Of a DNA stretch of 64,000 bases, positions 14,536 to 63,865 are shown piece after piece (within the stretch, counting starts at the first letter, position 1; the number at the start of each line of letters is the position of its first letter). Origin of the DNA: Cymodocea nodosa (taxonomy: Eukaryota > Streptophyta > Magnoliopsida > Alismatales > Cymodoceaceae). The stretch is from positions 3,546,501 through 3,610,500 of the forward strand of contig CM072341.1 of NCBI GenBank assembly GCA_036874045.1. Reading direction: 5' to 3'. Below the pieces are notes generated by a model. That model was not told the DNA's origin. It saw only the letters and a program-made list of their open reading frames with translations, and did not search any database. The position numbers and the translations under genes were made by a program.

Positions 14536-14543
14536 AACTTTTC

Positions 14544-17667: not shown

Positions 17668-17674
17668 AGTTTTA

Positions 17675-17692: not shown

Positions 17693-17776
17693 ATTGAATT
17701 GAATTAATATAAGCAACTATTAGAGCTGTTTTGTTTTAATATCTAGAGTTGTGTGTTTTCTTCTGTAATTGAGAAT

Positions 17777-18500: not shown

Positions 18501-18504
18501 TAAT

Positions 18505-22422: not shown

Positions 22423-22439
22423 TAAGAAATCAGTTTTTA

Positions 22440-28153: not shown

Positions 28154-28167
28154 AGGTATGGGGGAAG
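28154..28167 (+). other. Second polypurine tract of element A
   Basis: AGGTATGGGGGAAG directly before the 3' LTR start TGTTTAGAATG. The same arrangement is found inverted at 38145-38158 in C and 3207-3219 in G. Confidence 0.8.
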
Positions 28168-28413
28168 TGTTTAGAATGAAAAAGTGCATATTATTAATGG
28201 TTAAATGATGGTTAATTGCATAATATTTAGCTTATCATATGAGAATTAAGCTATTATGTTATAATTGCACTGTTATATGATTTAATTAAAGAATCTGCTT
28301 AATTTTGGGGAATTAATGTTAATTTAGTATATTTCTGAACTGTCGGTAAGTTGCAAGCTGTGAAATTCTTAAGTATCCAAATTTTCTTATATTTCGGACA
28401 GTTATGTTTAACA
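28168..28413 (+). repeat. Element A 3' LTR, truncated to 246 bp
   Basis: Starts TGTTTAGAATGAAAAAG like the 5' LTR, but stops at GTTTAACA and is followed at once by the target duplication AATAT. The match to the 5' LTR ends at 15472 plus about 245 bp. No other LTR sequence follows. Confidence 0.85.
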
Positions 28414-29646
28414 AATATCTTGTCTTTTTATGCTTCCCTGAATTTTCTTTCTTCTAATACTTCAAATCTTCAGTGACGTAAATCTTACCTTTTTATGCTT
28501 CACTGAATTTTCTTCCACCTGAGAGATTTTCCCCGAAGAGGTGTTTTTGATCCCTGAAGAGATTTTTCGTTTTGTGTGCAAGGATAATTTTATCAACGAG
28601 AATTCTATACCTTTTATACTGTATCTTCATTTCATGCATATCCTCCACGTTTAATCACTACTAGTTTTCCACTTCTCCACGTCTTTTCTTTTTTCTTTAT
28701 CGAAATACACACGTTCTGACCCACGTTTACATTTCGAATTTTCTTTAATCATTAGTCTTGGATCTTTGAAAAATTTCCTGCAAAATAAACTTTCTCATCT
28801 AAAATTTTTTCATCAGTGTAATAAGAAGTCGTTACTTTAATGTTAATTAAACGAGTAACACAAGTATATATATAACTTAACGTTTCTGACTTAACGAGTT
28901 TCTCATGTGCCAACTCACGTGACAAGTACTGTAGCTAACTCAACGAACTATCTCCGTGGTGTTACACTAACTCCATGAACCATCTCCGTTGTGTTATGAT
29001 AACTCAATGAACCAATAATAAACAAATATTTTTATAATAAGAATTTTACCACGTGCAAAAATAACAACTTAAGTTTATAACGCTAACTTAACGCATTGCC
29101 TTAGTGTTCAATATAGCAACTCAATGCGTTTAGTTATGTTAACTTAACGAGTTAAACATGTGCAACTCACATGATACAATATAACATTCATAACTTATAA
29201 TTTCACCACATGTGTAACACTAACTTAACGAGTTCGTCTCTTCTTTTACTAACTAACTTAACGAGTTTTCACATGACCTATTTTAACCTTTAAGCCTCTA
29301 ACTTAATGAGTTCTCACGTGATCTCTATACAAACAAAACTCTAACTTAACGAGTTGTCTAAACATGCACTATACATGATACAAAAAATATAACTTTAAAA
29401 CATATCGTGCTTTTCAATAAAAACACATGTTAACTTAACGTTTAGTTAAATGAGAAATTAATGCAATGAAACGACTAGTTATTAACTTAGTATAATTTTA
29501 GATCCAATACAGACAAGTATTTATATCATTTACCTTTTTCTGTATTAATCTATGATTTTAATTTCTTTTCACAAGCAATAGTAATTGAGCAAATATGATT
29601 ATTTTCATTTAACACACATCATCAAAACAAAATACTCAACATAATT

Positions 29647-30295: not shown

Positions 30296-32493
30296 ATGAA
30301 GCTAAGGATAGCACAAAACTGGTAGGACAAGATCGACATCACGAGTTTTCTACATCAATTTGAAGATTGGCATTCATGGAAGAGGATTCAAAATATAACA
30401 CGAGAGAAGGAGCTTCAAGAGGTAGAAGAAAAAATCCTTCATTTTACTAAAAAGATTGTGGAGCAGAATGTTAGAGTTCCAAGTATTTTTGAGACTAGAA
30501 TGAGAGAAGCAACGAAATCAGTAGTAAATAGAGAATGTCGAATTAGGTCTCATAATGAGATTGCTTTGGAACTAATCCAACAAAAATGTAGGGCATGGTT
30601 CCTACATAAAATTTATTGTGTAGTTAAAAGATGGGTTGAACAACAATAACAATAGGAAGAACAACAACAACAACAACAAGAAGTAGGACCCTCAAATCAA
30701 CAACCAAGATCAATAGAAAAAGTTGTATTTTTAGGTTTGGGATTTGAGGAGGAGATTAAAGAATTTAATAATTTGGTTAAACTCTGGAAAGAACAGGGGG
30801 CTGATGAATCGATGGCCTTAGCAAAAGCACATATTTTGTTTGATGTAATCTAGAGGAGATAGATTGAAGAAAGAGTAAAAACCAAGTATAAAGTTAAATT
30901 AGAACATCATTAGGAAGTAACTAGAACACCAATTGCAAAAGAATCTAAAGTTGGTCCTTCGAGACTAGTAACTATCAAGGAAGAAGAGACTGTTCCTATG
31001 GCTCAAAGAAAAAAATGACTGATTTTTGTTGATCTACTATCTGAGGAATAAGAGGAAGAACAAACATAGTTAATTAGAACAAGAAAAGGAAAAGAAAAAG
31101 TGCCTAAGGCTTAGGAAATTAAACTTGAGCTGATAACACTTACATTAGGCCACATGAGCCCATATATAGATCTAGTATCAGAAGAAGAAGAAGAAGATCA
31201 ACAACAACAAAGAGAATAAGAAAAATAGGCTAAAATAGAGCTGTAGCCTCAAGAAATTGGAGAAGAAGAAAAAGAATCTGAAATATGTGCCTAAGAATTT
31301 GTTGTGCTTGAGACTTCATCTTCCACTAACACTAAGAAGAGATTAACAATGGAATATGGAGAGAAGGAAGAAAAAGAAATAGAAGAAACTGAACAAGAAT
31401 CAATAGAAACTAAAGAAAATAGTTTGACAGATTCCACTATAGAGGATGAAACTTTTCAACAATATCTAAAAAGTTTGAAGGAGAAAAATGTGGAAAGTTC
31501 TATAGGCTCTCCACCACAAATGAGGATGAAGAAAAGGAATCTCTAGATAGATTTTCTCTTTAGCAACAAATTTAGCAAATAGAGGAAGAATTGAAAGAGT
31601 AAACCTCTATGGAACAAGAAGTTCGGTTTCCTAACCCCTCTAAAGCAATAGTAATGAATGTAGTTCATTTTTAGAGTTAGGAAGCATATGACAAATATCA
31701 AGAAATAAAGGAGTATGATATTATATATAGTAGACCAATCAATTGGACTGAAATGGAGGACATTAGAGAACTGTTTGAATTTCAAGGTCTATTGGAAATA
31801 ATTCCAAAAGTAAGTGGGCATGTAATATATGAAAATTTAGTGCCTAACTTTTATGCAAACTTGAGGGAAGAAGATGGAACATTATTGTCAAATGTGGAGG
31901 AGGTTAACATATAGATAACATCTGAGCTTCTCTAAAATATATTTGGAGTAAAGAATGAAGGAATAGAAATTTTAGAAAATATAATAGCAACTAAATGGAT
32001 AGAACAGGAAATCAAGCAGTGTTTAGTCATCGACCCTCGTGTGCCACTTTTAAACAAAATGAAGTACTTGAAAGGAAAGACACATATGATGGCTAACATT
32101 TTAATTAAGACTATCTATTAAAGGCATAACCATGATATAGAATTGAGTCAATTTATGAAATGGACCACATATGTAGTTGTCAATAGAATTCAAGTGAACT
32201 GATGTTGAGTGCTCCTATAAAAAATCAGATTTGTAAAGAAAAAGCTATTTTATGGAGACTTGATATGAGTAATAATGATGGATGCTATTGATTTCACCAG
32301 ATGGACATCAAAGAAGATTAGATCTAGGGCTATCTTAGTGAAAGAATACAAAAGTTATGCTGCTGCTGTTGACTCGACTAGGATTGTAGGACATTCTAGA
32401 GAAGCTTCAAGAGCTTTAGAACAAATAAATCAATTAGAGCAACAATTAGAAAAATTCTAGAAGGAAGTAGATGAATTAAAGAATAGAGATTAA
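30296..32493 (+). pseudogene. Element B ORFx
   Basis: Starts MKLRIAQNW and ends ELKNRD like the A copy. 30458-30649 (RVPSIFETRMREA, IALELIQQK), an acidic Glu-rich middle (31304-31546), and a C-terminal domain with ANLREEDG and MANILIKTIY are all recognisable. Many stops, several TAG. Same layout and length as in A, which supports a real ancestral gene rather than chance ORFs. Confidence 0.6.
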
Positions 32494-33488: not shown

Positions 33489-34126
33489 AGAGTTTATGAG
33501 AACATGGATTTGTTCTCCTAATACTAAATGATTAGTTTGAACACCTACATAGAATTATTTAACACAGAAGCATACTAAATTTTTTTTTGAAATTAAATTA
33601 AATGAAATCCTTCAAGGTATAGCTAACCTTTCATTAGAGGAAAATGTAGAAATGATTGTTCTAGTAGAAAAATCATTAGGAGAAATTCTTTATCCTAAGT
33701 TAGTAGATGAACCTTCATGTATTTGATTGCCAAACTTTGAGGGAGATAGGTTTGAATTGAAATCTAATTATATTAGTCAATTACCACACTTTCATGGATT
33801 GGAAAGAGAAAACGTCTATTTTTCCTTAGAGAATTTAATGAAGTTTGTCAAATGATGAGAATGCCTAATATGAGTATAGATGCTATTAAACTTAGATATA
33901 TTCTGTTTGCTTTAAAGGATACAGCTAAGAGATGGCTATATACTCTAGTTCTTGATTCAATTTCTACATGGACTGAATTTTATTTAGTTTTTCTAGAAAA
34001 ATATTATCCAACTCATCAAATGATTAAGAAGAAAAAAAAAATTAATGTGTAGCCAAAAACAAGGAGAATCATTCTGAAAATATTTTGAATGATTTAAAGA
34101 TTTATTAAATCAATGTCTACACCATG
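33489..34126 (+). pseudogene. Element B downstream gag (capsid), N-terminal part
   Basis: Starts MRTWICSPNTK; then ANLSLEENVE, KSLGEILYP, DEPSCI and LPHFHGLEREN, and 33852-34052 holds KLRYILFALKDTAKRWLY and FYLVFLEKYYPTHQ. This is the Retrotrans_gag capsid core of Athila/Tat elements. It lies after ORFx, not before protease. It is interrupted at 34126 by element C, within KDLLNQCLHH. Several stops and a frameshift. Confidence 0.8.
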
Positions 34127-37100
34127 TGTTTGGGGTTTGTTAACTTCTATTTTTACTTGTTTAATTTGTCTTTATGATTATATCAATAATTACTTTTAGA
34201 AGTAAACTAACAACCTTTCACACAAATTAGATATTAATTCTAATTTGTATTTTAACTGCAAGTGCATAGTGTATATTGTATTTGTGTGCAAGTACAGGTC
34301 AATTCCATAGAGATTGAGTAAGAATTGTATACTGTTTTGATTTTTATATTAGAGTTTGTATTCAATAAGCACTCTGTTGAGTTATAGTTAACACAACAGA
34401 CCTAATTTGTGGACTTAAGTTAACTCCACAAGCCTATCTAGTTAAATACTACTATTTACAAAGGAATTCGGCTAACCATTAGGCAATTCCACAAATTGTA
34501 AATAACATCAATTAAGCTCTTTAATGCTAGTTAAGATTAGATTTATCATTAAGCAACACTAACATTAAGATATTTCAAACAGTAACCATTAAAATCTTTA
34601 AATATTTGGAATGAATCAATTTCAGTAAACTGTAAAACTATTTTCTATTTTCTGAAACAAAGAAACATAAAACATTCACAATACTAACAATGATAACATT
34701 AATCACAATACAAAACAAACAACACAACACTTAAATACTAAATATAAACACAGATAAGTTGTTGTTTTTGGTATTTTTGTTTTGATATGTTCATGAAGAT
34801 GAATGGAAGGTGAAATGTAAAAATATCTATCGATAGTAAAAACTTCTGTCACTACATGCAATGTAATTACACCACTAAAAACCTAATCACTTACAATCTT
34901 GTCTCCTCTCCCAATAGAATCGCAAGTCCAAAATTGTAAGATGATCTTCTCTTCAGCATACTGGCATCAACCCGAAACCAAGGCTAGAAGCTTTATGATC
35001 TCCTGAGATGTGAGTCGGTGCTTGGTGAAAATGGTTTCCCTTCCTGCGACGTGATCACTCCTCATAGTGGTTGTCAAGCACTGTGTTTGGCTCAAAATTG
35101 ACTCGACATCAGAAAAGTATCCTTACAAACCTTTGTTTAGAATGAAAAAGTGCATATTATTAACAGTTAAATGATGGTTAATTGCATAATATTTAGCTTA
35201 TCATATAAGAATTAAGCCATTATGTTATAATTGCACTGTTATATGCTTTAATTGAAGAATTTACTTAATTTGGGGGAATTAATGTTAATTTAGTACATTT
35301 ATGAACTGTCGGTAAGTTGCAGGCTGTGAAATTCTTAAGTATCCGAATATTCTGATATTTTGGACAGTTATGTTTAACATACCGAACAAATTCAGACAGT
35401 TATGTTTAACAGACCGAATATGTATCGGATAGTTATCTCTAAATTGCCGAATAGTTATGTTTTGAGAGAATATTTTATTATTTCCTGAAGTACATGTGTC
35501 GAAACCATAATGAATGACTTAAGTGAACTTTTGGTGAGTTATCTATAACTATCCGAAATTGTAGTTGGGCATTGGATAGTTATCCCTGTAACTCTCCGAA
35601 ATCTCTTTTTATTTATATAATAGCTGAGGACACGTGTCATATTTTGGGAAAGTGACTTAAGTGGATTTTTGGTGAGTTAGTTGTAACTATCCGAAATGCA
35701 TCTGAGCATCGGATAGTTAGACTTGTAACTCTCCGAAATGTTATTTTTATGATTAAACTGCTGCTGACACGTGTTGAGATCTGGAAGATTTACTTAAGTT
35801 ATATATCGATGAGTTATTTATAACTATCTGAAATGCACCTAAGCATCGGATAGTTAAGTTTATAAGTATTCGAAATGCACCTGACCATCAGATAGTTAAA
35901 TTTATGCACGTGTCTTATAGTTAAATCAACGAAGAAAGTCTGTTGAGTTATCTGTAACTCCATGGACTATATATTTTCTAATATGCCACTATAGCAGTTG
36001 TAGGAACAAACAGTTGGAAGAGAAAAACCACGTTTGCATTTTTCATGTAGGAATTCAATCGCGTAGGGAGAAGAAAGCATCACCGTTGATATGAATGAAG
36101 GAAATCCAACCGGCCATTCAATCAGAAGCAGTTACTACTGAAGAAATATAAAAGAAAAGAAGAAAAAAAGAAGAGTGTGTGTGATCGATGGGCGGACAGT
36201 GTGTGTAGAGGAGGATCGACGTCGCAATTCTCTGAAGTACCACACCAACCATCATCATCACCATCATCACCACCATAATCACCAACCATCGGAGGTCTGT
36301 GAGGATACTTGCCTGATGTCAGGTCGATTCCGAGCCAAACACAATGCTTGATAACCACTGTGAGGAGTGATCGCGTCGCGGGAAGGGAAGCCATTTTCAC
36401 CAAGTGCCGACTCATATTTCAGGAGATCATAAAGCTTTTAGCCTTGGCTTTGGGTTGATGCCTGTATGCTGAAGAGGAGATCATCTTGCAATTCTGGACT
36501 CGTGATTCTATAGGGAGAGGAGACAGGATTGTAAGTGGTTTAATTTTTAGTGGTGTAATCGCGTTGCAAGTAGTGTTGGAAGTATTTACTGTTAAGTGAG
36601 ATTACTTTACATTTTACCTTTCACCCATTTCCATGTTCATATTAAAACAAAAATACCAAAAAAAATTTATCTATGTTTGTATGTTGTATTTGAGTGTTGT
36701 ATTGTTTGTGTTGTATCATGATTAATATTATCTTTGTTAGTGTTGTGATTGTTTTTATTTTAGTTTTACAACTTACTGAAATTGGTTCGTTCAAAAGACT
36801 TAAAGATTTTAATGGTTACTGTTTGAATTATCTGAATGTTAGTATTGTTTAATGATAAATCCAATGTTAACTAACATTAAAGAGCTTAATTGATGTTATT
36901 TACAATCTATGGAATCGCCCAATGGTTGGCTGAATTCTTCTGTAAATAGCAGTATTAAAAAGAAAAGTCAAGCTCGTGGAGTTAACTTAAGTCCACGAGG
37001 TTAGTCCGTTGAGTTAGTCATAACTCAACGAACTTTGTCTATTGAGTTAACTATAATTCAATAAAGGGCTTATTGAAGATACAAATTTGATTGTTAACAA

Positions 37101-38144
37101 ACGTACAGTTCTCAATTCTTAAGCAATTCCCTGTGGGATCGACCTATACTTGCACACTGATACAATAGACACTATGCACTTGCATTTAAAGTACAAATTG
37201 GAATTAATATCTAAATTGTATTAAAGGTTGTTTGTTTACTTCTAAAAGAAAGAATAGGCATAAAGATAAATTAACTAAGTAAAAACAGAAGTAACAAATC
37301 TAAGTTTTTGTAGTGTAGTGCTGGGAAAACCCAAACAACCTTTGATAGTTGGTGATTATGGTGATGGTGGTGATTTTGGTGATGGTGTGGAGCTTTAGTG
37401 AACTTTTGATGCTCCCTACAGTTAGTGCGGTCCTCCACCTCTACACACACTGCCAACCACCCTTTCTTCATTTTTTCTCTTCTTTTATATTTATTTAGTA
37501 GTAACTGCTTCTACTTAGATGATCAGTTGGATTTCCTTCATTCATATCAATGATGGTGATTTTTTCTTCCTTCCATGAGTGAATTCCTACGTGATACGTG
37601 CAATCGTGGTTGCTTCTGTAACCGCTACAGTAGCATATTAGAAAATATATGGTCCATGGAGTTACAGATAACTTAATGGACTTACTTCATTGATTTAACT
37701 ATAAAACACGTGTAATAAAGAAATAAGCTGCTAACATAACGTGTTACCTTAGTGTGTATTCATGTAACTCAACGTGTATAGTTATGCTAACTTAATGAGT
37801 TAAACATGTGCATCTCATGTGATATGCTAAAGCATTTAAATTCAACACGTGCATTCCAAGAAATAATAAAATATTCTTTTAAAACATACTATCCGGTACA
37901 TGCAATATAACTCTCTAAAATAACAAAAAATTCGGATACTTAAGAATTTCACAGCCTGCAATTCATCAACAGTTCAAAAATGTACTTAATTAACATTAAT
38001 TCCCTGAAATTATGTAGATTCTTTCATTAAAGCATATAATAGCACAGTTATAACATAATGGCTTAATTCTCATATGATAAGCTAAATATTATGTAATTAA
38101 CCATCATTTAACCCTTAATATTATGCACTTTTTTATTCTAAACA
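34127..38144 (-). repeat. Element C 3' LTR, split by a solo LTR
   Basis: Plus-strand ends TGTTTGGGGTTTG and ATTCTAAACA are the complements of the Athila LTR ends. About 1.8 kb without the guest. Its middle (37690-37900) carries the module also present in the B LTR and related to the Copia-3 LTR, rather than the hairpin cassette of A. Confidence 0.82.
35134..37337 (+). mobile_element. Athila (A-type) solo LTR in the LTR of element C
   Basis: 2,204 bp from TGTTTAGAATG to CCAAACA, nearly collinear with the element A 5' LTR. The exact duplication ACCTT lies at 35129-35133 and 37338-37342. It has hairpin cassettes with CACGTG at 35631, 35768 and 35907. No internal genes; the Asp/Gly-rich ORF at 36122-36415 is incidental and recurs in each LTR copy. 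Confidence 0.93.
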
Positions 38145-39660
38145 CTTCCCCCATACTTCAATTTTGCTAGTCCCTTAGTAAACTAAGATCTAACTAGTTG
38201 GTATTTCTAAAGTGCTAGAATTAATTCTTTACTTTGTTCTTCTTTAGAATACATAATTTAGATTACTATATAAATATTTTGTATTTTTCAGTAATCTGTT
38301 TTAGCATTGTTTTCTCCTCTTCAACCTACAAATATATTTGTCAATTTAAAAGATATTTGACAGTATATGCATATTTATACTTTAAAAGTTAATTTGACAA
38401 GCTTGAATAATACAAGAGCTTTCTAGTGTACCCATGTATCGAGCTTTTAGTCAATAATCCCAAATCTAATCAGGACCTTAGGTTGCCAACTTTAAAGAGT
38501 CCATTTTCAGGTCAACAATCCTTACATACCTATTATGCTCAAGTATAAAAGGCTCGTGATCAAATAAGTCAATAAACTCTTAAAGTTTTTCTCTTTTCTT
38601 TTCAACACAGTATATATATACGTATTTCATTAATACAGATGCAATAAAACACAAATCTCATATAGTCTTGCTTCTATTATTTATTGAAAATATGAATCCA
38701 TATCAATAAGCTCATACTTTTTCTGTAGTTTAATAAGATCTACACATAAATCATTTTACAAGTTTAATCAATCAAATTAAATGTATCCTTGATCATATGC
38801 ATCTCATTTAATCTAAAAATCAACATTTCAGCTCTTCTAGGATTTCAGATAGTTTACTGAGTTTCAGTTAAGCATTTTGTATTTTGTAAAATCATGAAAC
38901 TGTTAAACTCATAAAATTCAGCAAAAACATAAGATACTATATCTAGATTTGTATGAATAGTAAAATTCTATAGTATCTTATATAGGATTATAAATATAAC
39001 ATAAAAGTAGTTACAGTTCTTAAAAATTTTACAGTCTCAATTATCAGATAGTTACAGCAAATTCATAAAAATTTTCAATTTCCAAAGAACTTTGCAGTAC
39101 CATTCTAATTTCTTTAATTAACAAAATTACAAAGCTGTTACTTTAATTACCTCCCCCCTATACCTACATTTTTCATTGTCCTCAATGTAAAAGATTTTAC
39201 CATAAATACAGTAATTGTAGCAGACATGAATATTGTTTTGACTCAACGAATTAAATAATTCGTTGAGTTAATGAATAACTCCACGAACTGAGTTTAAATG
39301 TAAACTCAGGATAAGTAATCAATTACATACATTGTTCTTTTGTATCTCCTTCCATATCTTCTGATTTTTGATTCTGAAAAACTTTTCATTCATAAATAAA
39401 AGCAAAATATATAACAAAATAACAAAACATAAATTGCTAATTCAGTGTCTTGTGTGGAACCCAGGCTCCTATGACTTTGGTGGCTCACAAGCAAGTCAGT
39501 TGGTTTCCTAGAACAGATACCAACAAACTGGATTGATATTTTGTTTTCTTTTTCTTTCTTTCTTATAAAATAAAACTAAAAGTAAAAAATTTTCTTTTCT
39601 CTTTTTTTTTAAAAAAAAAATTACAAAATACACACAACATTAAAAGTACAGAATTATAAT
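38145..39660 (-). other. Element C 3' non-coding region
   Basis: In element direction: the GAGCCACCAAAGTCATAGG block (39440-39540), first polypurine tract (complement of 39150-39164), a conserved block (39000-38340), and second polypurine tract (complement of 38145-38158) directly at the LTR. Same order and spacing as in element A. No gene. Confidence 0.7.
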
Positions 39661-40788
39661 TTAAGAACATGATTGAAAAGTAGTAACAAATAGAATAAAT
39701 GTGTTAGTCCATGCAAACTTTTTAGGCATAATTCTTCTTGCTATTAATTCTATTTTAATGCAGTTTGTTTTCCTTTTTAGCTTGTAAACTTGCAGTATGT
39801 TATCAATACTAAATATAAGTGTATTACCATTAATGAAATGAAATGCAGAAAGAGATCCTCTTCTGTTCCAAGATAATGTAACTATTTCTATTTCTACATC
39901 TATTTCAACATATTCCTCTTCCCACTTCCATTCATTTAGGTCTTTCATAATCCATATTTGAAATTTCCTCAATTCATCCCACCATCTTATCAAACATAAA
40001 GTAGGATCATCATATTTATTATACCACATTCCTAATTGAATTTGATCATATTCTGAAGACGGTGGTTTAGCTATATCACTCGGTATAGGTAATACTTCTA
40101 TAAAATCTTCATAACTGTCTATGCTTACTATGTATAAATCAGATCTAAATGCAATTGATATCTCTGTGACCAGATATATATATCCATCAAGTATGACATG
40201 CATGTTGTTAATTAATGCTTTCTGTCCTAGATATATCATAGTATTTTCAATCCAAGATCTATTTAGAAAATTATACACACTTAAGCATAAATCTTCATCC
40301 CAATTTCCAGTTGGTCTCCAATAATATAATTTTTCAGGAATGGTCAATTTTTTATTAGAAAGGATTAAAGCTGACCCACAATTTTCAGTTGGTACTTCAA
40401 ATCTATTAGGCCTTCCTATATTCCATTCTTCTCTAGTGATAGGATTTCTAATCAAAATATCAGGTAACAAAATTGAATACCTTGGTTTTGTTCTGTAAAT
40501 AATTAATTCTTCATCCATCCCCACAGTATGATCTATTCCTTCTAATGTATTGGGTGGAATTCCAATAGTTTCTTCTATATTCAGATATTCATAATTGATT
40601 GAACTACGATTAAATGACTTCCATAAAAATCCATCTCTAATCTTAGTCATTTTTACAGCTTGTAGTCCATGAAAATATTTTTCTCTAACACAGTCTTTAA
40701 TTTATTTTGATACACAACACAATCTGCACAGATTTTTACCTAACAAGTTACTTAGTACTTCCCTTAGTGCATCTAGTGGTAATTTCAT
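39661..40788 (-). pseudogene. F-box protein with F-box-associated domain, carried by element C
   Basis: 375 codons in a single frame with one stop. It starts MKLPLDALREVLSNLL; residues 2-28 are an F-box (ending CRLCCVSK), followed by the only stop, a TAA at codon 29, perhaps from CAA. The frame then continues to the end. The remainder has features of the plant F-box-associated (FBA) domain: LIRNPITREEW, VILDGYIYLVT, LYIVSIDSYEDFIEVLPIP, LCLIRWWDELRKFQIWIMKD. Such proteins recruit substrates to SCF ubiquitin ligases. A TTTTTGTTTGTGTTATACAG acceptor-like site at 40809 precedes the start by about 20 bp. The gene lies in sense with element C between gag and the polypurine tract, and element A has the same gene at the same place. 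Confidence 0.85.
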
Positions 40789-40899
40789 CAATTTCGTCTG
40801 TTGTGATTCTGTATAACACAAACAAAAATTTAATAGAGACAAATTAACATAACTACTTACACACCCTCGTGGAGTTAGGTCATAACTCAACGGACTAAG
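40789..40899 (-). promoter_or_regulatory. Putative 3' splice site before the F-box gene
   Basis: A T-rich tract ending ATACAG at 40809 (minus strand) lies about 20 bp ahead of the F-box start codon and just after the end of gag. This would let a spliced, subgenomic mRNA express the gene. Inference only. Confidence 0.35.
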
Positions 40900-42364
40900 T
40901 TCGTTGAGTTAAGTAATAACTCTATGATACTACTAACTATAATTAAACTTACATTTTTTTCTTTTTATATTTTTTTACTTACTATATTATACATAGTTAC
41001 TTCAGTTATACTACTTCATTCAGCTACCCTCCCAAAGGAGGTATCAATTTCATTAACAGTTCTATTAACAAGGTTAGGTACTGCTTGCATTGGCAATCCT
41101 CCAGTAGGTCTAACTTCCATCGATTCCTTCTATCTACGGGGTATATTTCTATTCATATTTTGATTTTGAATTGTAACATTTCCAAATACAAGATTTAGAC
41201 GATTGTTTAATTATTGGATTATCTTTTCTAATTTTTCTATTCTAGATCCTTGTTCAATTAATGCTTCATAACTTATATTTTTGTCATTTATATTTTCTCC
41301 TCCTTGGAAATTGTTGTTTCTCCAAGATAAATTCGTGTGATTTCTCCAATTAGGGTTATAAGAATTTCCAAAGTTATCTTTCTGGTTTCTAGCATAAATA
41401 ATATCTAAATCATTAACATTTGCATTCTTTTCTGCTAGCTTTTCATTTAATGATAACTCTTCTATTTTCTTTGTTAATTCTGTTAATTTAACTTCAAGCA
41501 TAGTGCTTGAATCTATTTCATACATTCCCTTTGGCAATATTCTTTTATCTGTAATAGCTTCAGTCGAGTTTTCCCACTATGCAGTTCTTTTTACAAAGTT
41601 TTCTAAATATGCCCATGCTTCTTCACTACATAATTTTAAAAATCCATTCTGATAAGTAGATTCTAATAAAGATTTCGTTGAAACATGTATACCTTCATAA
41701 ATTATACCTATTAATTGTGCTTTACTCATTGCATGATGTGAACATTGAGTCAGTAAATCTTTAAATCTTTCAAAATATTTCCAGAATGATTCTCCTTGTT
41801 TTTGGCTACACATTAATATTTCCTTTTTCTTTTTAATTGTTTGATGTGTTGGATAATACTTTTCTAGAAAAATAGAGCACAATTCAGTCTATGCAGAATT
41901 AAATCAGGCGACAAAGTATATAACCATCTCTTAGCTGTGTCTTTTAAAGCAAAAGGGATATATCTAAGTTTAATAGCATCTATATTCATGTTCGGCATTT
42001 TCATCATTTGATAAACTTCATTAAATTCTCTAAGGAAATAATAGACATCTTCTCTTTCTAATCCATGAAAATGTGGCAATTGACTAATATAATTAGATTA
42101 CAATTCAAACCTATCTCTCTCAAAGTTTGGCAATCGAATGCATGAAGGTTCATCAACTAATTCAGGATATAGAATTTCCCCTAATGGTTTTTCTACTAGA
42201 GCAGCCATATCTTCGTTCTCTTTTAAAGAAAGGTTAGCTACACCCCTAAGGATTTCGTTAAAGTCCAATTTAGAAAATTTTTCAGTACGTCTTTGTGTTG
42301 AATAATCCTGTGTAGGTGTTCTTACTAATCGTTTAGTGTTAGGAGAACGAATCCGTGTGCTCAT
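40900..42364 (-). pseudogene. Element C downstream gag (capsid)
   Basis: Starts MSTRIRSPNTKRLV. Then LVEKPLGEILYPELVDEPSC, LPHFHGLEREDVYYFLREF, KLRYIPFALKDTAKRWLYTL, KQGESFWKYFERFKDLLTQC and IIYEGIHVSTKSLLE make up a complete Athila/Tat capsid core. The C-terminal part has SYNPNWRNHTNLSWRNNN and RPTGGLPMQAVPN but no CCHC knuckle at the place where Athila Gag usually has one. Broken by a TAA after DRFEL, a frameshift near 41880, a TAG after VKRTA (about 41575) and further stops toward 41100. The F-box gene follows directly. Confidence 0.85.
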
Positions 42365-43080
42365 AAACTCTTAACAAAAAGTAAAATAGCAGAAGATTAA
42401 TTACATACTAGTCTGAAGCTTTATATTTAGTAAATAGTTGTTGACAGATGAAGTTGAATCAACTACTTCTCCTTCTAGTTCCCCAACAAATTTCCTTTTC
42501 TTTCAAAAGTGCTGGTAACTAGTAAATAACATGCTATTCTATATTTATAATGCACGTCCATAAAGCAAATGAATCTCGTTGCAAAAATGTGTCTTGTAAC
42601 GTGTAGTGTGGTTCCTATTTTTATGGGTATGTGTGCCACTTCTAATTTCAAATTTCAGTAATCGCTAAACCACAAAGTTCCGTTTGTGGCTAAAAGAATA
42701 ACTGTTTAACTTAATCCATGAACTAACCTCGTTGAGTTACAGTTAACTCAATGGACTAGCTTTAGTTACTACTACTAACTCCACGGACTAACTTCGTTGA
42801 GTTACAAATAACTCAACGAAGTGACCTTATATTATATTATTGACCTCGTGGAGTTAAGGTTATCTCAACGAACTTACTTCATTGAGTTAATACTTAGCAA
42901 ATTTCTAAAACTTACTCCTTGTATTAACTTCTATATATTTTTTTTCTCTCCTACATTTTTTTCAACTTAAATAAAGTTAAATACATGTCATTAATGTAGT
43001 GTTCTAAGTAAAACTCATTTAAATCTGATCTTGATATATATATTTAACTTACAGTTCATTTCCTGTTGTGTAGAATTTAC
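42365..43080 (-). other. Element C leader region upstream of gag
   Basis: Inverted counterpart of 32600-33488 in B and of 25440-25740 in A. It carries AACTCAACG repeats (42720-42890) and a CATAAAAATAGG TATA-like site near 42617-42628. No ORF. Cut at 43080 by Copia-2. Confidence 0.55.
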
Positions 43081-44968
43081 TATTAGGACCCTAGTATTTT
43101 GATAATGCAAAACCTATGTGAGGAAACATATTATATTTCACAGTTAAGTCAGTGTAGCATTAGATCAGAAGGTAGATAGAACAAATTCCATGCAGATGAA
43201 CAAATGGAGAAGTTTCCAGATAATACTGCCTTAAAGTTACAGGAAAATCGAACAGTTACAAGTCCAAAGAGCAAGTTTAAAGCAACAGCAATACTATCGG
43301 ACAGTTAGAAGAATAATTATCCGAAATTATAAAGCCTTCGGAGAGTTATTTAATTAGACAGTTAAGGGGATTGAATGATCGGATAGTTAAGGAGTTAACT
43401 ATCCGGAAGCTTAAAGGACTTTTCGGAGAGTTACAGGTATAACTCTCCGAAAGTTAAGTCATTCAATAAACCACGTGTAGAAATACAGAACGGAAGCTTA
43501 AAGGACTTGTCGGAGAGTTAGATAACTATCCGAGTTTTCTTTTCGGAGAGTTAGATAACTATTTGAGTTTTTCGATAAGTTACAGGCATAACTTTCCGGA
43601 ACTTAAGTCATTTTATTACGCACGTGCAAAATGGAGAAGCTGGCAATTGAAAGCTTAAAAGGGAAAATCGGAGAGTTAGAAAGATAACTATCCGAAATTT
43701 CAAGAGAGTTTCGGTGAGTTACAGTTTAACTATCTGAAACTTAAGTCATTGAATTTCACACGTGCAGAATTCTAGACAGATGCTCAAATGGGTTTTCAGA
43801 GAGTTAGAAAGATAACTATCCGAAATTTCAAAAGAGTTTTGGTGAGTTACAGTTTAACCATTTGAAACTTAGGTCACTAAATTTCCCACGTGCATAATTC
43901 TAGAAAGAAGTGCAAATAAGTTTTCGGAGAGTTAGAAAGATAACTATCCGAAATCCTAAAGCGTTTCGGTGAGTTACAGGGATAACCATCTGAAACTTAA
44001 GTCAGCCTTTACGCACGTGCTGAATTAAAGTAATCGGAAAGTTAACAGAGACAAACTATTCGACAAGTATATAACTGTTCGGTGAGTTACAGTTATAAGT
44101 ATCCGATTGGATGACAGCTCACATTTAAATATTCTGGAATCCTACCTGGCAGTTAAGGTTAAGTGATCTTTCGATGAGTTGGAGATACTCTTCGGAGAGT
44201 TGCATAGCTAACTATCCGAAAGGATAGGAAAATCGGTAAGATATCTTGAAATGATTTTCTGAACGGTCACTTACCATATTGGAACTTGAGTCTAATCAAG
44301 TACAGTAGAATACATCCGTTGGAAGAAAAATATGATCATTGTATATATCAGGTATATATACAAGATATAGACAACGGATTTAGATAGTTTTTGCTCATAT
44401 ACATACAGAGATACAGTATACATTGCAAATAAATTACTGATATAGAAGAAAGCTCAAATTCAGTTCAACAAAGAATCGATTGAAAGCTGGAGTTACAAGA
44501 AGATTCTTAAAGCTCTCCATGTGTTGAAGTCTGATCCAAGAAGGATCATTTGGTTCGTGGCTTCAACCTAAAAGCTACATTCAGTTGTTGGTTTGAGTTT
44601 CAACCTGAAAACTCAAGAGGTTGGTTTTCTGGAGTTTATACCTGAAAACTTCTAAGTGTTGGTTTTCTAGAGTTTATACCTGAAAACTTCTATGTGGTTG
44701 GTTCTTGCTTCGACCTAAAAGCAAGTGTATAAGTGTTGAGACACTTAGTGAAGCCCAAGTGACCCTTGGGGGTGGACTAGCCGAGTTGGTGAACCACCTA
44801 AAATTCTCTTGTGTTTCTTACCTTTATTTCCGCTGTGCATGATATTTTTATCTGATTATTACTTGTGCAAACTGATTAATCAAATTAGTTAGTAAAGTGA
44901 AAAATAGGCTTAAATTCACACTATTCTCCATTCACCCCCCCCTCTGGTGAAGCCATTCATTCCTAACA
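43081..44968 (+). repeat. Copia-2 5' LTR
   Basis: TATTAGGACCC (first G mutated; TGTTAGGACCC in the 3' copy) to CCTAACA. It carries five tandem cassettes with CACGTG at 43472, 43621, 43759, 43887 and 44014 (spacing 149, 138, 128, 127 bp). Each has two hairpins and CTTAAGT. The R/U5-like part has GAAGCCCAAGTGACCC. Confidence 0.9.
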
Positions 44969-44970
44969 AT

Positions 44971-44982
44971 TGGTATCAGAGC
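44971..44982 (+). other. Copia-2 primer binding site
   Basis: TGGTATCAGAGC, the standard initiator tRNA-Met site, two bases after the LTR end. Confidence 0.92.
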
Positions 44983-45020
44983 AGGTTGATCTCTTTTTAT
45001 AGATTTAACCATTTGAGATC

Positions 45021-46550
45021 ATGACATCTTTTCACAGAGAGGGTCAGAACATCCATCATCCTCCCTTGTTTGTTGGCATTAATTATAATTACTGGAAAAA
45101 CAGGATGGAATGTTTCCTCAGAAGCTTAGATGTGAGTTTATGGAAAATGGTTGTTCTAGGAACACCTATTCCACCTAGTCATGAGGATGATTGGACTGAG
45201 GAGGATGAGAGAATCATCCAAATGGATGCTCGAGGGCTGAATATTATTTATTGTGCCTTATCTATTGAATAATATAATAAAGTTTCAGCTTGTAAATCTG
45301 CTCACGAGGCTTGGAACACTCTTCAAATAACCTTTGAAGGAACCAACTAAGTGAAAGACACTAAAATAAGCATTTTACTCAGAAAGCTTGAATTATTTAA
45401 AATGCTTGATGATGAAACTATCACTGATATGTTTTCAAGATTCATTGAGATTATTAATGGCTTAAGAGGTTAGGGAAAGGAATTTTCTGTCCGTGAATAG
45501 GTACAGAAAATCCTCAGAAGCTTAACTGTGGAATGGAAGCAACAGTCCACATCAATACAAGATTCCAAAGACCTCAACAAATACTCAGTAGAGGATCTAA
45601 TGGGCAACTTGCTGGCCCATGAAGTTCAAATGAAGGAATGGAAAATTGAGGAAGGTAGTGGTAAAAAGAAAACTGAAACAAAGAAAGAACTAGCATTTCC
45701 ATCAACATAGGAACTTCAAAGCTCAAATGATGATGAAGTTGTTCTATTGGCTAGAAAATTCAGAAAATGGATGAAGAAAAAGAATCATGCTAGCACATCA
45801 AAAAGCAATGCACCAATATGCTTTAAATGCAAGAAGCAGGGACATATACAACCTGATTGTCCACTGCAACAAGAAGAAGAAAAAGAAATGAAGAAGAAGA
45901 AGAGGAGCTACAAAAAGAAAATGGCATTGAAGGCTGCTTGGGATGACAGTAGTTCTTCTAGTAGCTCATCTAGTTCAGATGAAGAGGTACCAGTAAACGT
46001 GTGCTATACAGCACAAGAGGTATGTTCCACTTCATCTCAAAATGATTCTGATGTAGACAATGATAATCTAGATGTAAATATTCTTTTGTCTACTGTTGAC
46101 AGTTTATATGTTAAATGCAAAAAGTATAAAAAGGAAATTAAGCATTTAACTGCATGTTTAAAAGAAGCACATACTAAACTTGAAAATCTGCATGTTGAAG
46201 ATAGGAAATGCTATAATGATGAACTGATAAATGAAAATGAAAAATTGAAATCTGAAATCACTGATCTGAAAAATACTGTGCATAAATTTACTAATGGACA
46301 GAAAGGATTAGATCAAATCATTGGTTTTTAAAGATACAGTTCTAATAAACTTGGCCTAGGGTATGCTACTCCATAAGAAATACCCTACTATGGTGGTGTT
46401 ATCCGATCTTATAAAGATGGTACAACAATGTTTGCCATCCAAAGAAGATCTGGTTCAATGTGGCTGCCAAAAGGCAATAAACTAAATATTGTCAGGACTA
46501 ACACTTATGGACCCAAGAAAGTATGGGTACCAAAATCTATTTCTGTTTGA
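45021..46550 (+). pseudogene. Copia-2 gag
   Basis: Starts MTSFHREGQNIHHPPLFVG in the style of SIRE/Maximus Gag. Then come the YWKNRMECFL core, EVQMKEWKIEE, a CCHC knuckle CFKCKKQGHIQPDC (about 45820-45860), a Lys-rich stretch, a Ser run (about 45948-45978), a coiled coil (YNDELINENEKLKSEI) and a tail ending VWVPKSISV. All 510 codons stay in one frame, broken only by about seven stops (from 45270 TAA to 46374 TAA), most at codons expected to be Gln. No frameshift. Confidence 0.85.
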
Positions 46551-48059
46551 ATTGCAGGATTATATGGTTTAGGGGGAGTAGTTGATCTATAGCTCTAAAC
46601 CAGTTATGACAGTAAAATTTTGGTATTACAAGAGGCACCATAAATTGGTAGAAAGTGCTCACTTAGACTAAGTGAAAATTGTGCCTAAAATCTTGATGCT
46701 CAAGGAGAGAAAAATGTGCAACAGTTAGAAACAAGTGTTATCAAAATAAGTAGAATCTCGTGAAGAGAAATTTTTTTTTAGAAGCCAAACAATTGATAAT
46801 CAGTTAAGAATCAGTTATGATATTCTGAAATTAACAATTGGCATCAAAAGTAGCATCAATGATTGAATCATGTTCTTTAAAGGAAACAAGGCTTGCATGA
46901 ACCAAGTTGAATGACTACAAATGCAGGGAAATCAGATTCATCAAAGGACAACCAAAATCTACAGTAGACAGATTACAGTCTTCAAATTATCTTCTGCAAA
47001 TAGAAGAACCACTTGAAACAAAGATCCAAGAGAAGATAAATGAATTGGAGTCAGAAGCAAATTGATTGAAAATCTTTTATGATATTTTTGATTAACAATT
47101 GGTATTTAGTTCAATTCGTATCATATATGACATTCATTTTGTAGAACAGGTGCAACAAATTTGTTTGCAAGGAAAAACATATAAGTAGGGGGAGAACCTA
47201 CTATATGAAGAGAATTCAGAATGTTACTTCAGTACAAAATAAAAGTGTATAAAGAGGGCATGCATATAGGGGGAGAGCCTATAGCTTGCTATTATAAATC
47301 AGAGAACCTCCATACAGATAGGGGGAGAGCATGTGGCAGAAATTACAAATATTAACTACATATTTATAAATGGCTACATTAACTATTAGCATTTCACTGT
47401 TTTCAGTTTTTACAGATGATGAAATAATTACATGAAAACAAAGGAAGAAATATCACAAATTAGGAGAGCAATTACTAACTTCTCAGATGATAGAATGTCA
47501 ACAACTGACATCAGACAAGGATTAAGGAAATTGACACTTCAATTGATACTGTGCTCGAATAAGAAAGAAGAAAAGTAGCACAAATCAAAGGAAAAGAAGA
47601 AAATAGACTGCGATGATGAAAATATCTCAACAATTGAGATCTACACATCAATAGTCTACATTTGTTGGAAAATCAAAAATTGGTATTTGAAGATATTGAT
47701 GCATTTGATTCTTTTCACAACTTGATATTTGACGGGATTACAGAGATCAGAAAATTGGTATATCATCAGATACTAATTTAATGACAAAAAGGGGAGAAGA
47801 AAATTCAGCAAAAGAAAATTGTGGTACTCCTTTTATCTAATGACAAAAAAGGGGAGAAGAATATAGAAAATTACATAGAAGGTAGGGGGAGCTTTCCCAG
47901 CACACAGACAAGGCGAGAAATTAACTTCATTGTATTATATTCATTGTAATTCTTTGCTTTACTTAGTTTCTATATGATTGAATGTATAGCAACAATCTAG
48001 GGAGTGAAATACATGTAATTTAATGTAAAGGTTTTTGTCATTATCAGAAAGGGGGAGAT
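46551..48059 (+). other. Copia-2 non-coding internal region and polypurine tract
   Basis: Where pol should be there is AT-rich, non-coding DNA. Purine tracts of the form TAGGGGGAGA recur near 47188, 47268, 47320 and 47884, with two ATGACAAAAAGGGGAGAAG texts near 47780-47850. The true polypurine tract AAAGGGGGAGAT abuts the 3' LTR. Confidence 0.65.
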
Positions 48060-49424
48060 TGTTAGGACCCTAGTATTTTGATAATGCAAAACCTATGTGA
48101 GGAAACATATTGTATTTCACAGTTAAGTCAGTGCAGCATTAGATCAGAAGGCAGATAAAACAAATTCCATATAGATGAACAGATGGAGAAGTTTCCAGAT
48201 AATACTGCTTTAAAGTTATAGGAAAATCAGATAGTTACAGGTCCGAAGAGCAAGTTTAAAGCAGCAGCAATACTATCAGACAGTTAGAAGAATAACTATC
48301 CGAAATTATAAAGCCTTCGGAGAGTTATTTAATTAGATAGTTAAGGAGTTAACTATCTGGAAGCTTAAAGGACTTTTCGGAGAGTTACAAGTATAACTAT
48401 CCGAAATTTAAGTCATTCAATAAACCACGCACAGAAATACAGAACGGAAGCTTAAAGGACTTGTCGGAGAGTTAGATAACTATCTGAGTTTTCTTTTTAG
48501 AGAGTTAGATAACTATTTGAGTTTTTCGGTAAGTTACAGGCATAACTTTCCAGAACTTAAGTCATTTTATTACGCACATGCAAAATGGAGAAGCCGGTAG
48601 TTGAAAGCTTAAAAGGGAAAATCGGAGAGTTAGAAAGATAATTATTCGAAATTTCAAGAGAGTTTCGGTGAGTTACAGTTTAACTATCTGAAACTTAAGT
48701 CATTGAATTTCCCACGTGCAGAATTCCAAACAGATGTTCAAATGGGTTTTCAGAGAGTTAGAAAGATAACTATCCGAAATTTCAAAAGAGTTTCGGTGAG
48801 TTATAGTTTAACCATCCGAAACTTAAGTCACTGAATTTCCCACGTGCAGAATTCTAGAAAGAAGTGCAAATAAGTTTTTGGAGAGTTAGAAAGATAACTA
48901 TCTGAAATCCTAAAGCGTTTCGGTGAGTTACAGGGATAACCATTGGAAACTTAAGTCAGCCTTTATGCACGTGCTGAATTAAAACAATCTAAAAGTTAAC
49001 AGAGACAAACTATCCGACAAGTATATAACTATTCGGTGAGTTACAATTATAAGTATCTGATTGGATGATAGCTCACATTTAAATATTCTGGAATCTTACC
49101 TGGCAGTTAAGGTTAAGTGATCTTTCGATGAGTTACAGATACTCTTCGGAGAGTTGCATAGCTAACTATCCGAAAGGATAGGAAAATCGGTAAGATATCT
49201 TGAAACGATTTTCTGAACGGTCACTTACCGTATTGGAACTTGAGTCTAACCAAGTACAGTAGAATACATCTGTTGGAAGAAAAATATGATCGTTGTACAT
49301 ATCAAGTATATATACAAGATACAGATAACGGATTTAGATAGCTTTTGCTCATATACATATAGAGATATAGTATACATTGCAGATAAATTACTGATATAGA
49401 AGAAAACTCAAATTTAGTTCAAAT
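48060..49424 (+). repeat. Copia-2 3' LTR, 3' end missing
   Basis: Begins TGTTAGGACCCTAG and is collinear with the first ~1.36 kb of the 5' LTR, including the cassettes. It ends near AAATTTAGTTCAA, where the 5' LTR continues for another ~500 bp. Confidence 0.88.
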
Positions 49425-49429: not shown

Positions 49430-51538
49430 ATTTATAATTGCAAGCGCACGGTGCCCATTGTAATAAGCATGTGCAAGTACGGGTCGAATCCACAAGGAGT
49501 TTGTCTTAAATAATTTTTATTAAAATGATTATCTGATTAAATATCCACATTAAACTAACTCATAATTAAACTCTAATTACTTAATATTAATATACAAAAT
49601 TCGTAGCACAATTAAGATTTATAAGATTACTCCAAAATCCAATTAGTTATGATAAGATATTTAAGAAATCAATGAGTATTAATCCAGAAATCATAGAATT
49701 TATGCTCGACTTTTAACTCTAATAACTTCCAACTTGAATGTTTAAAAATCCAGAATAAATAACGGTTGGAAAGATCCTCGGAATATCTTTCAAATGGCAG
49801 TGATTTCGTGGATTAACATAAATTAAAATGCTAGAAATATCTTATTTAAGAAAAGGGCGCAGACGGTTATGGAAACTTTCCAAAAATGCACCTTCGGTGT
49901 AAAAATCAAATCTCCATCAAATCTTCATGAAATGCTACAAAATAAGTGCGCCTTGAAGGTAGATCTATTACACTAATAAGGAAAATTTACAGAACTGAAT
50001 TCCACAAAATACACAACACAAGCACAACAAAGGCGTCGAGCTCAAAACTAGCACTCAATAGAGATTCAAAACCGCTGATACCTTCACAAAATAAAATCGA
50101 AAAGCTTCGAAAAATATTCTAAAAAATTCTAAAACTTTGTAAACTTGTTCTACACTCATTATACTTACAAAACAAAACAAAAAATAGAATTTAGAGATGA
50201 CGAACAAGTGCAAACAATTCGAAGAAAAGCTACTAACATTCTGGCCATCTAAGAAACAAAAAACTGCCTTCACAATTTACACCATCACAAACATTCACAC
50301 GAAACATATGATATGAATTCAATTCTTATATCAATTAACATCAAAACAATATATAATATTTAATTTAGAACATTTGAAACAAAGATTTATGCATAGAATT
50401 TCGTTCTTCCACATACTCAAACTATACTCATACATATAAAATTGTAAAACATGAAAACTAGTATGAGGATCTCTCCTTTCCATCATACCTTTTAATCCTC
50501 CACATTTCTTCAAGCAATGACTCCCCAAAGTCCTTGAAATCGATGCTCCACAGGGCTGTCACCACCTGTAGCACGTCCAAGTGAAGCTTCTAAGGTTGCC
50601 TTGAAGAATAGTGGTGCACGTCCTCAAGATTTTGCCTCAAAGACCTAGAACTTTGGCTTCCACATCTAAGAATGGTGCTTCCGATGACTCAACCCTAAAG
50701 ATCCTAACCTTTTTCTCCACTCCAAATCAGTCACACGAGCCTCCCAATCCACCAAGATGAATGCCCAAGGAGATCCTAACGTATGGCCGTCTGAATTGAA
50801 GAGAAGGTGTCTTCTAGGAGGAGTGGAAGACGCCAAAGCTCACCATTCTTGAAGGGAGCTTGTTCAAGATCAAGGGGAAGATGGGACTTTCTGAACAGAG
50901 ATGTTGGAATGGCTAGAACTACCGACTGTAATGTGTTGGAAGAGAAGGAGATAGCCTATAATTAAGTGGTCAAACACTTTAAATACTCTAGGCTTTTGTT
51001 GCTTGGGCTCCAATAAGTTGCATCCAATGGCCCACGTTTTTTCCTCTTTAATCCACCTTGATTTCATGATTTATTGACCTATAAAACTCAAAACCAAGTT
51101 GGATGCACATATACATTGAATATAAATCATATGATGCAAATATAGTATATATGCATGCATGAGTTGCCTGCCATATATGGAAAGTTGCCAAATTAGGAAG
51201 GTTTTGGTCTACAACTTTTTCACATGTATATACATGAATTACTTAAAGTTCTTTAGTTTAACATCATATTTAAGTGATTTGGCAATCATAGAATGTATAT
51301 AAAGTCATATATTGAAGAATTATAAAAATCATATCTAAAACAAGGGCTATTGACTAGGTGTTTAATTGAATAAAGGATAAATTTGTACATTATCAACTAT
51401 TTAATCCCTAATTCATGCATATGTCTAAAAATATGATTTTCATGTAATCCTTTATAAGAACATATATAATGATGACTTATAATCCTTAATATGCATGAAT
51501 TAACATATATAAAATGCACAAATTGACATTTTACAACA
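49430..51538 (-). mobile_element. LTR of a further Gypsy-type family (F), inverted
   Basis: The right end (minus strand TGTTGTAAAATGTC) looks like an LTR start. The left part has TTGCAAGCGCACGGTG and CAAGTACGGGTCGAATCC, in the style of Tat/Athila LTR ends and similar in kind to the CTGTACTTGCACA block of the A LTR. It is otherwise unlike other sequence in the window, with no coding features; the small minus-strand ORFs at 50055-51067 have no recognisable domain. It separates Copia-2 from element D. No matching duplication was found, so the left boundary is probably a deletion. Confidence 0.5.
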
Positions 51539-51540
51539 GG

Positions 51541-52308
51541 CCTTTGAGTTGTAGGTACTAGCTCTTCCTATTTAACTTTTTCTATAATTGCTGGTCTCGA
51601 AGGATCAACTTCAACTCCTCTTGTAGTAGGTTTGGTAGTGGCTTCTTGATGCTGTTCCACTTTAATTTTGTATTGGGCCTTCAACTTTTCTGCAGCCCTC
51701 TTTTTGCACCATGCTTCAAACACTAGATGTGCTATAGGTATTGCCAACTCTTCTAGTTCTCCTTGGTCTTTTTCAATTTGAACCAATTCTTGAAATTCTC
51801 TTAATTCTTCCTCAATAGAAGGCCCCAAAATTGCTACTCTTTCTATCGACCTTGGTGGTGGAATTGAAGGTCTAGGCTGCTGTTCCTTAGGGACAAGTCT
51901 TTCAATAGTTGGCTCCTTTTGTTCTTCAGTTGCCTATTTTTCATTTTCTTTCCTTTGTTGCTCCCAGATTGCCCACTAAGCCCGCCTACCTATGCATCTT
52001 TTGAACCAGAGTCAGGACTTATGTTGGATTAATTCTAGGGCAACTTCATTATTTGGTTTGATTTTTCTCTCTCTGTTTACAGCAACTTTTGTTACTACTC
52101 TGATTCTAGTTTCCATCATCTGAGGTATTTTTATGCCTAAATCAACTAACACTTTCCTCTAGTAGAAAAGGTCAGATTCTACCTTTTGTAGTTCTTTTTC
52201 CCTCGTCGTATTTCTGATCTTCTACCTTGTGTGCTATTCTTCTGAATCTTTAAGAAATTCTGAAGTGTCAACTACGTCCTCCTAGAATTCTAGTGTCATC
52301 TTTGTCAT
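51541..52308 (-). pseudogene. Element D ORFx, N-terminal part
   Basis: Starts MTKMTLEF, close to the A copy (MRKMTLEF). ETRIRV, NNEVALELIQHKS, ERLVPKEQQPRPS and the open 51828-51568 (EEELREFQELVQIEKDQ, then YKIKVEQHQEATTK) follow. Several stops are TAG, readable as Trp or Gln codons. Cut at 51541 by the family F LTR. Confidence 0.65.
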
Positions 52309-53140: not shown

Positions 53141-53474
53141 TAAGTAAAGCTCGAGTAGTCCTCTACTCTTACTTCTTCTATAATTCCAAAAGAACTTTTT
53201 GGTATTTTCAAAATAGGCCTAAGTCTTTGTCCATTTACTTTAAATATATTTTGATTTTTAGGATTTTCAATTTCAATAAATCCATAGGGATAAATATTTC
53301 AAACTATGTAAGGTCCTGCCCACCTAGATCTTAATTTTCCTAGATGGTTATGCAGTCTAGTCATATAAAGATATACTTCTTGTCCTATTTCAAAGGTTTT
53401 TGGAATAATTTTCTTGTCATGCTAGAACTTCACTTTCTCTTTTTCTCTTACAGTTTTCAAATAAGCTTCATTCC
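53141..53474 (-). pseudogene. Element D integrase, C-terminal end
   Basis: The minus strand reads the same as 22090-22422 of element A: LHNHLGKLRS, VNGQRLRPIL, EVRVEDYSSFT and the stop at 53141. It contains stops where A has them in part. It is cut at 53474 by the Copia-3 element. Confidence 0.75.
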
Positions 53475-63030: not shown

Positions 63031-63032
63031 CT

Positions 63033-63845: not shown

Positions 63846-63865
63846 GGTCCAAGTAACACAAGTAT

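Follow-up and report, generated by a model that had tools for sequence, protein, structure and literature searches.

The window analysed here, a stretch of 64,000 nt from Cymodocea nodosa (assembly of 374.6 Mb, 28 contigs), contains retrotransposon insertions termed A, B and C, and the gene under study is an F-box gene that is carried by element C and recurs in an Athila-like Ty3/gypsy family throughout the genome. It occupies positions 40788 to 39661 of the minus strand, where ORF analysis and profile search identified an open reading frame (ORF) of 375 codons encoding an F-box and F-box-associated (FBA) domain features. A single in-frame TAA at codon 29 (40702-40704, minus strand) interrupts the frame in C (locus L001) and was not seen at this codon in 29 other aligned loci. 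The frame lies in sense orientation, with the capsid-type gag of C (Retrotrans_gag; 41211-42364, minus strand, frame broken, recognised by profile search and sequence comparison), itself located downstream of ORF3, on one side and the polypurine tract and 3' long terminal repeat (LTR; 38152/38144) on the other. The intervening 3' untranslated region (UTR; 38145-39660, minus strand) ends in the polypurine tract at 38145-38152. The initial annotation, made from the sequence alone, had described a 375-codon sense frame with one stop between gag and polypurine tract, and both ORF analysis and the Pfam F-box match confirm this arrangement.

The F-box of C exceeds the Pfam cut-off (PF00646, E = 2.9e-7, residues 2-39), as do those of L003, L004, L006, L024, L026, L033 and L063, the best value among six copies open across the gene being 4e-11. 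FBA_1 (PF07734) matched C weakly and below its cut-off (E = 0.017), and the NCBIfam model F_box_assoc_1 (TIGR01640) stayed below its 37.9-bit cut-off in L003, L026 and L033 (2.7e-6 to 2.6e-8, 26.9-33.5 bits) while exceeding it in the element copies L020 (41.8 bits) and L002 (38.8 bits) as well as in L063 (50.1 bits), such that the F-box-associated features noted originally are present, if weak in C itself. A single-sequence structure model of the protein was unusable (pLDDT 33), and searches of the PDB with the protein gave chance-level matches or none. Shortly before the ATG, a pyrimidine-rich stretch ending in AG (40809-40830, minus strand), read by eye from aligned sequences, resembles a splice acceptor. 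By the same by-eye reading its AG is kept in 25 of 29 upstream-aligned rows, among which L003 and L004 each appear twice, and is lost in L005, L006, L007 and L017; this retention suggests expression from spliced RNA. All rows but those of C and L005 (27 of 29) have an extra ATG three codons upstream of the start used in C.

Both C and A are delimited insertions. C has an exact 5-bp target duplication, CATGG on the minus strand, at both ends (34122-34126, with the partner copy beyond the right end of the window at about 74609 in window numbering) and LTRs that are 90-92% identical, its 5' LTR (L062) lying outside the window. Element A (15472-28413, plus strand) is flanked by AATAT at 15467-15471 and 28414-28418 and contains, at 25742-26386 on the plus strand, the C-terminal half of the F-box gene with two stops, as established by sequence comparison with C; relative to C it is without gag and the N-terminal half of the F-box gene. 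The proposal that A is an independent insertion with the C-terminal part of the gene was thus correct. Alignment of A with C revealed no gaps in 632 ORF bases vs. 16 gap openings in 1436 bases of 3' UTR, and since the ORF is gap-free where the UTR is gapped and the gene recurs genome-wide, the frame is not a product of chance.

A genome search with a 329-residue part of the F-box protein, in which 122 of 6630 first-look candidates were scored, yielded matches for all 122, at 84-100% identity and in nearly every case across the full length; 23 of these rows (counted by hand, the row of the window included) are stop-free over this part. Thirty loci ranked by protein similarity were fetched, and all 30 matched both the N-terminal part of the F-box gene and the 3' UTR, while gag was located upstream on the same strand in 28, the exceptions being L006 and L009 (in L025 only a 44-bp end is present). 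Because this set had been ranked by similarity of the F-box protein itself, a second sample was drawn by the junction between polypurine tract and LTR, an exact 18-base sequence occurring 2492 times in the genome (reversed control, 0). Every fifth of 100 listed junctions was taken (n = 20, all on contig C1) and fetched with 3.1 kb. The F-box frame was full in ten of these copies, cut by the fetch edge in one, partial in three, deleted in three and not assessable in three (L042, L049, L053), where another element interrupts the stretch. With all or part of the gene in 14 of 17 assessable junction-chosen copies, the F-box gene is a normal component of this family. The suggestion that a multi-copy F-box gene spread with the family is borne out by this sample and by the target duplications of A and C; among the copies with target duplications, C carries the whole gene, A its C-terminal half and one junction-chosen copy none of it. 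On contig C2, thirteen F-box copies lie between 8.75 and 9.71 Mb, often spaced near 60 kb; eight fetched copies from there share a stop at codon 135, and the segment looks tandemly amplified.

Several comparisons point to selection on the frame. Among the 30 protein-ranked loci, L003, L004, L006, L024 and L026 are stop-free over all 375 codons (L033, from outside this set, is open too), and insertions and deletions are multiples of three in all save L009, L010 and L027. For estimates of the ratio of non-synonymous to synonymous divergence (w), for distances and for the comparison with gag, the tandem array was collapsed to L012 (L013, L014, L018, L022 and L028-L030 dropped); a duplicate of C was also removed from the 23-copy estimate of w. 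The 23 copies gave w 0.341 in frame vs. 0.520 and 0.648 off frame, with 0.228 for the F-box part alone. Their ORFs showed a median pairwise distance of 0.071 and 0 gap openings per kb, compared with 0.113 and 15 per kb in the 3' UTR and 0.109 and 10 per kb in the upstream spacer. At the same loci gag showed w of 0.29 and 0.26, against 0.34 for the F-box gene (19 and 22 copies; the gag values come from the 19 loci covering 85% of the stretch, and C/L001 and L031-L062 were left out of the comparison).

A number of observations, however, weigh against selection on, and regular presence of, the gene. Ranking copies by protein similarity lowers non-synonymous divergence (dN) for the F-box gene and thereby affects the 30-locus, distance and gag comparisons alike. 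Three of the 17 assessable junction-chosen copies are without the gene, one of these with an exact target duplication, and none of the ten full-length junction-chosen copies is stop-free. The picture from the junction-chosen sample, which we weigh equally with the protein-ranked one, is less clear: eleven copies (L039, L041 and L046 left out) gave w 0.542, with off-frame controls of 0.519 and 0.708, and values within two subfamilies (0.62 and 0.53) resemble those off frame. A test of fixed against singleton differences was not significant in either form, and the two forms lean in opposite directions: strictly fixed differences lean away from constraint (12 non-synonymous to 1 synonymous, p 0.12), while with one exception permitted the tendency is towards it (32 to 25 vs. 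228 to 105 singletons, p 0.09). The comparison of A with C alone carried no codon signal, and a neutral simulation of their stops gave P 0.066.

Among the junction-chosen copies, dN about equals synonymous divergence (dS) in the closest pairs, and in the most distant pairs dS is 0.26-0.27 and dN 0.11-0.13. Net w between the two subfamilies, calculated from junction-chosen copies plus C (seven and four copies; L043, an intermediate, and L039, L041 and L046 left out), was 0.41 in frame (confidence interval 0.26-0.65) and 0.59 (0.35-1.02) and 1.12 (0.66-2.46) off frame. We read this pattern as neutral decay after insertion superimposed on constraint while the elements were active, a reading for which the support is good but not overwhelming; that selection held the frame of the F-box gene is likewise supported but not settled.

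A more distant relative came to light in a genome search with F_box_assoc_1, in which 145 of 150 scored candidates (out of 1637) matched, 38 of the 145 above the cut-off. The best match among those scored reached just 49.8 bits (C7:17066786, L063), although genes of the F_box_assoc_1 type are usually numerous in flowering plants; this may reflect the first look of the search. One of the 145 loci, L063, was inspected, L002 and L020 being already known as element copies. Its protein is 34-37% identical to that of the family over residues 4-377, and contains an F-box (8.3e-8). The gene is flanked on one side by the C-terminal end of an integrase (49% over 45 residues) and on the other, in the adjoining stretch, by Retrotrans_gag, all three being on the same strand. 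Two gag stretches are 61 and 70% identical, the N-terminal stretch reaching no better than E 0.018; an acceptor-like TTTTATTTTCAG lies shortly before the ATG, and the frame is broken. Judged from these sequences, the F-box gene is old and has a different place, in the order integrase, F-box, gag, in the sublineage represented by L063. Between the sublineages, divergence of the F-box protein appears to exceed that of the gag stretches that matched, which would fit a moving target.

The view that the gene was captured once and then spread must accordingly be qualified: the spread is evident, whereas the single capture is in question given the other position and low identity in L063, and the gene may either have been acquired before the sublineages split and then moved, or have been acquired twice. 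The recommended search of plant proteins for a parental host gene gave no matches: among 1615 candidates of a protein database sharing exact 5-residue words, as the search required, none scored E<=1, and since an integrase control showed this database to be rich in plants, the lack of matches reflects divergence of the F-box protein and not a gap in the database. Neither these protein searches nor the F_box_assoc_1 genome search, with its one inspected match, identified a host parent gene. A search of the genome with PF07734 gave no matches and was uninformative, the controls being silent as well.

The position of the F-box gene is part of a wider rearrangement not mentioned in the initial annotation. 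Assembled from overlapping pieces of several insertions, the order of the element is LTR, primer binding site (PBS), zinc-knuckle region, protease, reverse transcriptase, integrase, ORF3, capsid gag, F-box gene, polypurine tract and LTR. In L033, ORF3, gag, F-box, polypurine tract and LTR follow one another, in L031 and L034 ORF3, gag and F-box, and in L035 integrase, gag and F-box; L032 and L036 contain gag and F-box in stretches without a match to pol or ORF3. Gag also follows ORF3 in B and C. In A, about 1.08 kb with a zinc-knuckle ORF separate the PBS from protease (17692-18771, plus strand), and no capsid gag was found either in this region or in L057-L060, in each of which a 5' region of the A type precedes protease. 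L057 is C itself, comprising just the last 326 bases of its 5' region with the remainder in L062, which was compared by DNA only; L058 belongs to the insertion of L033 and L060 to that of L040. An older element at 13189-15120 has the same 5' ORF as A. All elements examined thus have capsid gag downstream of pol, and at all 5' ends examined pol separates the predicted capsid part of gag from its nucleocapsid part. Such a separation of capsid from pol raises the question by what route, and at which ratio, capsid is produced.

As to the remaining features of the window, element A comprises a PBS (17675-17691), protease, reverse transcriptase and integrase (18772-22140) and ORF3 (23303-24988), all on the plus strand. 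Its 3' LTR (28168-28413) is just 246 bp long, whereas its 5' LTR measures about 2.2 kb, and yet the exact target duplication directly follows the shorter one. The gag of element B (33496-34126, plus strand), downstream of B's ORF3 (30689-32250), is interrupted by the insertion of C. The 3' LTR of C is present in two parts (37339-38144 and 34127-35133, minus strand), split by a plus-strand LTR at 35134-37338, and further pieces of C encode the integrase C-terminal region and part of ORF3 (51536-53475, minus strand), upstream of a nested copia element, and reverse transcriptase (63824-64000, minus strand), continuing past the window end. The internal part of C contains a copia-like element (43083-49422) and another element (53475-63845), and C is older than several insertions in it, as read from the pieces matching A on either side of them. 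The element at 53475-63845 has 0.8-kb LTRs that are about 96% identical and copia-like genes; within it, 55997-57968 holds a distant ORF3-like gene with 27-30% identity to A.

Palindromic hairpins (AACTCAACGAA/TTCGTTGAGTT) occur at 17354, 22711-22794, 25645-25740, 39235-39300, 40884-40910 and 42793-42882. These modules precede ORF3, gag and the F-box gene (the one at 40884-40910, supported by sequence comparison and folding, lies upstream of the latter in C) and are also found in the LTR, with similar ones in the copia-like LTRs of the window; four stretches were folded, with z of -2.2 to -5.6. One hairpin lies within a 52-bp block of the 3' UTR of C that is absent from A. Just past the F-box stop, another 3' UTR block is strongly conserved between A (26456-26599) and C (39426-39569) and contains, by eye, an imperfect inverted repeat, with another polypurine-like tract lying downstream. 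We do not claim a promoter inside the element ahead of gag (TATAAATATAG); the block is conserved in most of eight aligned stretches and may be coding.

Taken together, the finding is real and goes beyond the original description: an Athila-like lineage of rearranged gene order carries an F-box accessory gene throughout the family, the activity and target of its product being predictions. We consider it probable that the F-box/FBA protein is a selected, regular accessory gene of this Ty3/gypsy family, a judgement that concerns the gene and not its target. The protein would be made from a spliced subgenomic RNA, as the acceptor-like AG before the ATG suggests; expression from spliced RNA has been proposed for other 3' ORFs as well. 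The role of plant F-box/FBA proteins is to select the substrates of SCF ubiquitin ligases, and the F-box, going by the domain, would dock on plant SKP1 while the FBA domain would bring a target to the SCF complex. As the foremost candidate for this target we tentatively suggest a host factor restraining the element, e.g., an RNA-silencing protein; the element's own Gag or polyprotein would come next as a somewhat less likely candidate. More speculative than the choice of a host target is the full scenario in which the lineage rebuilt its genome, with the capsid gene behind pol, and over a long time retained a rapidly evolving F-box protein that counters host defence by directing a silencing factor to degradation, an endogenous counterpart of viral F-box suppressors.

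Other explanations account for part of the data. A captured host gene might merely hitch-hike without function, its frame intact because the copies are young, and the stops in all ten full-length junction-chosen copies, an overall w not below one of the off-frame controls, the loss of the gene from some copies and the non-significant fixed-versus-singleton test agree with this; we nevertheless regard it as improbable, given an ORF that is nearly gap-free and more conserved than the flanking UTR, constraint similar to that on gag at the same loci, and F-box and FBA domains still recognisable at 34-37% identity in the second sublineage. A functional protein could instead act on the element itself, e.g., by trimming Gag, polyprotein or ORF3 so that many copies coexist. 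The very high copy number (2492 junctions) and the adjacency of the F-box gene to gag in both sublineages, on opposite sides, speak for such a role, whereas the contrast between 34-37% identity for the F-box protein and 61 and 70% for the gag stretches, limited by an N-terminal gag stretch not matched beyond E 0.018, fits a fast-moving host target better, and self-regulation seems rather unlikely to us. That the gene belongs to the host and was hit by insertions, or that recombination confined it to two copies, as the initial annotation had allowed, is hardly credible: the 122 matches, the 2492 junctions and the junction sample, which place the gene genome-wide at the same position in the element, together with target duplications outside the gene, exclude both readings, and no supporting point was found for either. 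A selected accessory gene remains our preferred reading, under which two sublineages would have retained an F-box gene borne by a retrotransposon.

In Athila elements the capsid gag directly follows the PBS, upstream of protease. The family described here shares with this lineage long LTRs, a PBS, gag, protease, reverse transcriptase and integrase, a further sense ORF downstream of pol and a polypurine tract, and shows the Ty3/gypsy order of reverse transcriptase followed by integrase, but capsid gag is located downstream of pol and ORF3 and is followed by the F-box gene; we call it Athila-like because its capsid gag is not directly after the PBS. The PBS of A, which we take to be of the tRNA-Asp type, has two mismatches to the tRNA-Asp-type motif, and none of 100 shuffles produced such a match. 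The sense ORF3 between pol and 3' LTR matched Transposase_32 weakly (23.8 bits in A, cut-off 45). For gag, reverse transcriptase, integrase and env of Arabidopsis Athila, w values of 0.09-0.38 have been given (PMC2410132).

Accessory genes of plant retrotransposons are mostly without recognisable function, whereas the domains found here predict a directly testable biochemical activity, SCF substrate choice, in a family with about 2500 3' junctions. In the passages of the open-access literature consulted, no LTR retrotransposon family carrying an F-box was found, the nearest case being an LTR-gene of Thlaspi arvense (PMC8764390), and no comparable displacement of gag, whose position was the aim of only part of that search; the term F-box does not occur in PMC2410132, PMC7264820, PMC6317226 and PMC11963269. 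The Thlaspi case likewise links an F-box family gene with LTR retrotransposition, but concerns a single, tandemly duplicated F-box/leucine-rich-repeat gene, without mention of a family-wide accessory gene in the passages available (PMC8764390). Additional ORFs (aORFs) of plant LTR retrotransposons also include sense ORFs that most copies possess between pol and 3' LTR; in the parts of that survey considered these are env-like, whereas that of the Cymodocea nodosa family has F-box and FBA domains (PMC7264820). The aORF proteins of sunflower Tekay elements are, in the sections seen, accessory retrotransposon proteins proposed to modulate RNA silencing, but they resemble double-stranded-RNA-binding proteins and are encoded at the 5' end, the term F-box being absent from that text (PMC11728184).

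With plant F-box/FBA proteins (TIGR01640, PF00646) the protein shares both domains in their order, differing from them in its divergence and its location in a retrotransposon family. This location may show how a high-copy element copes with its host and would offer a natural means of testing whether mobile elements of plants turn the host ubiquitin system against silencing. Parallels on the side of the host and of viruses are described in the available passages of several papers: the host F-box gene FBW2 acts on ARGONAUTE1 (PMC2914764), viral suppressors of silencing that have F-box-like motifs interact with SKP1 (PMC6593998; PMC6784205), and the Polerovirus P0 of some members targets ARGONAUTE1, autophagy being named as contributing to its loss (PMC6593998). 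Polerovirus P0 is a functional parallel only, while the protein of the Cymodocea nodosa family has a Pfam F-box and an FBA domain.
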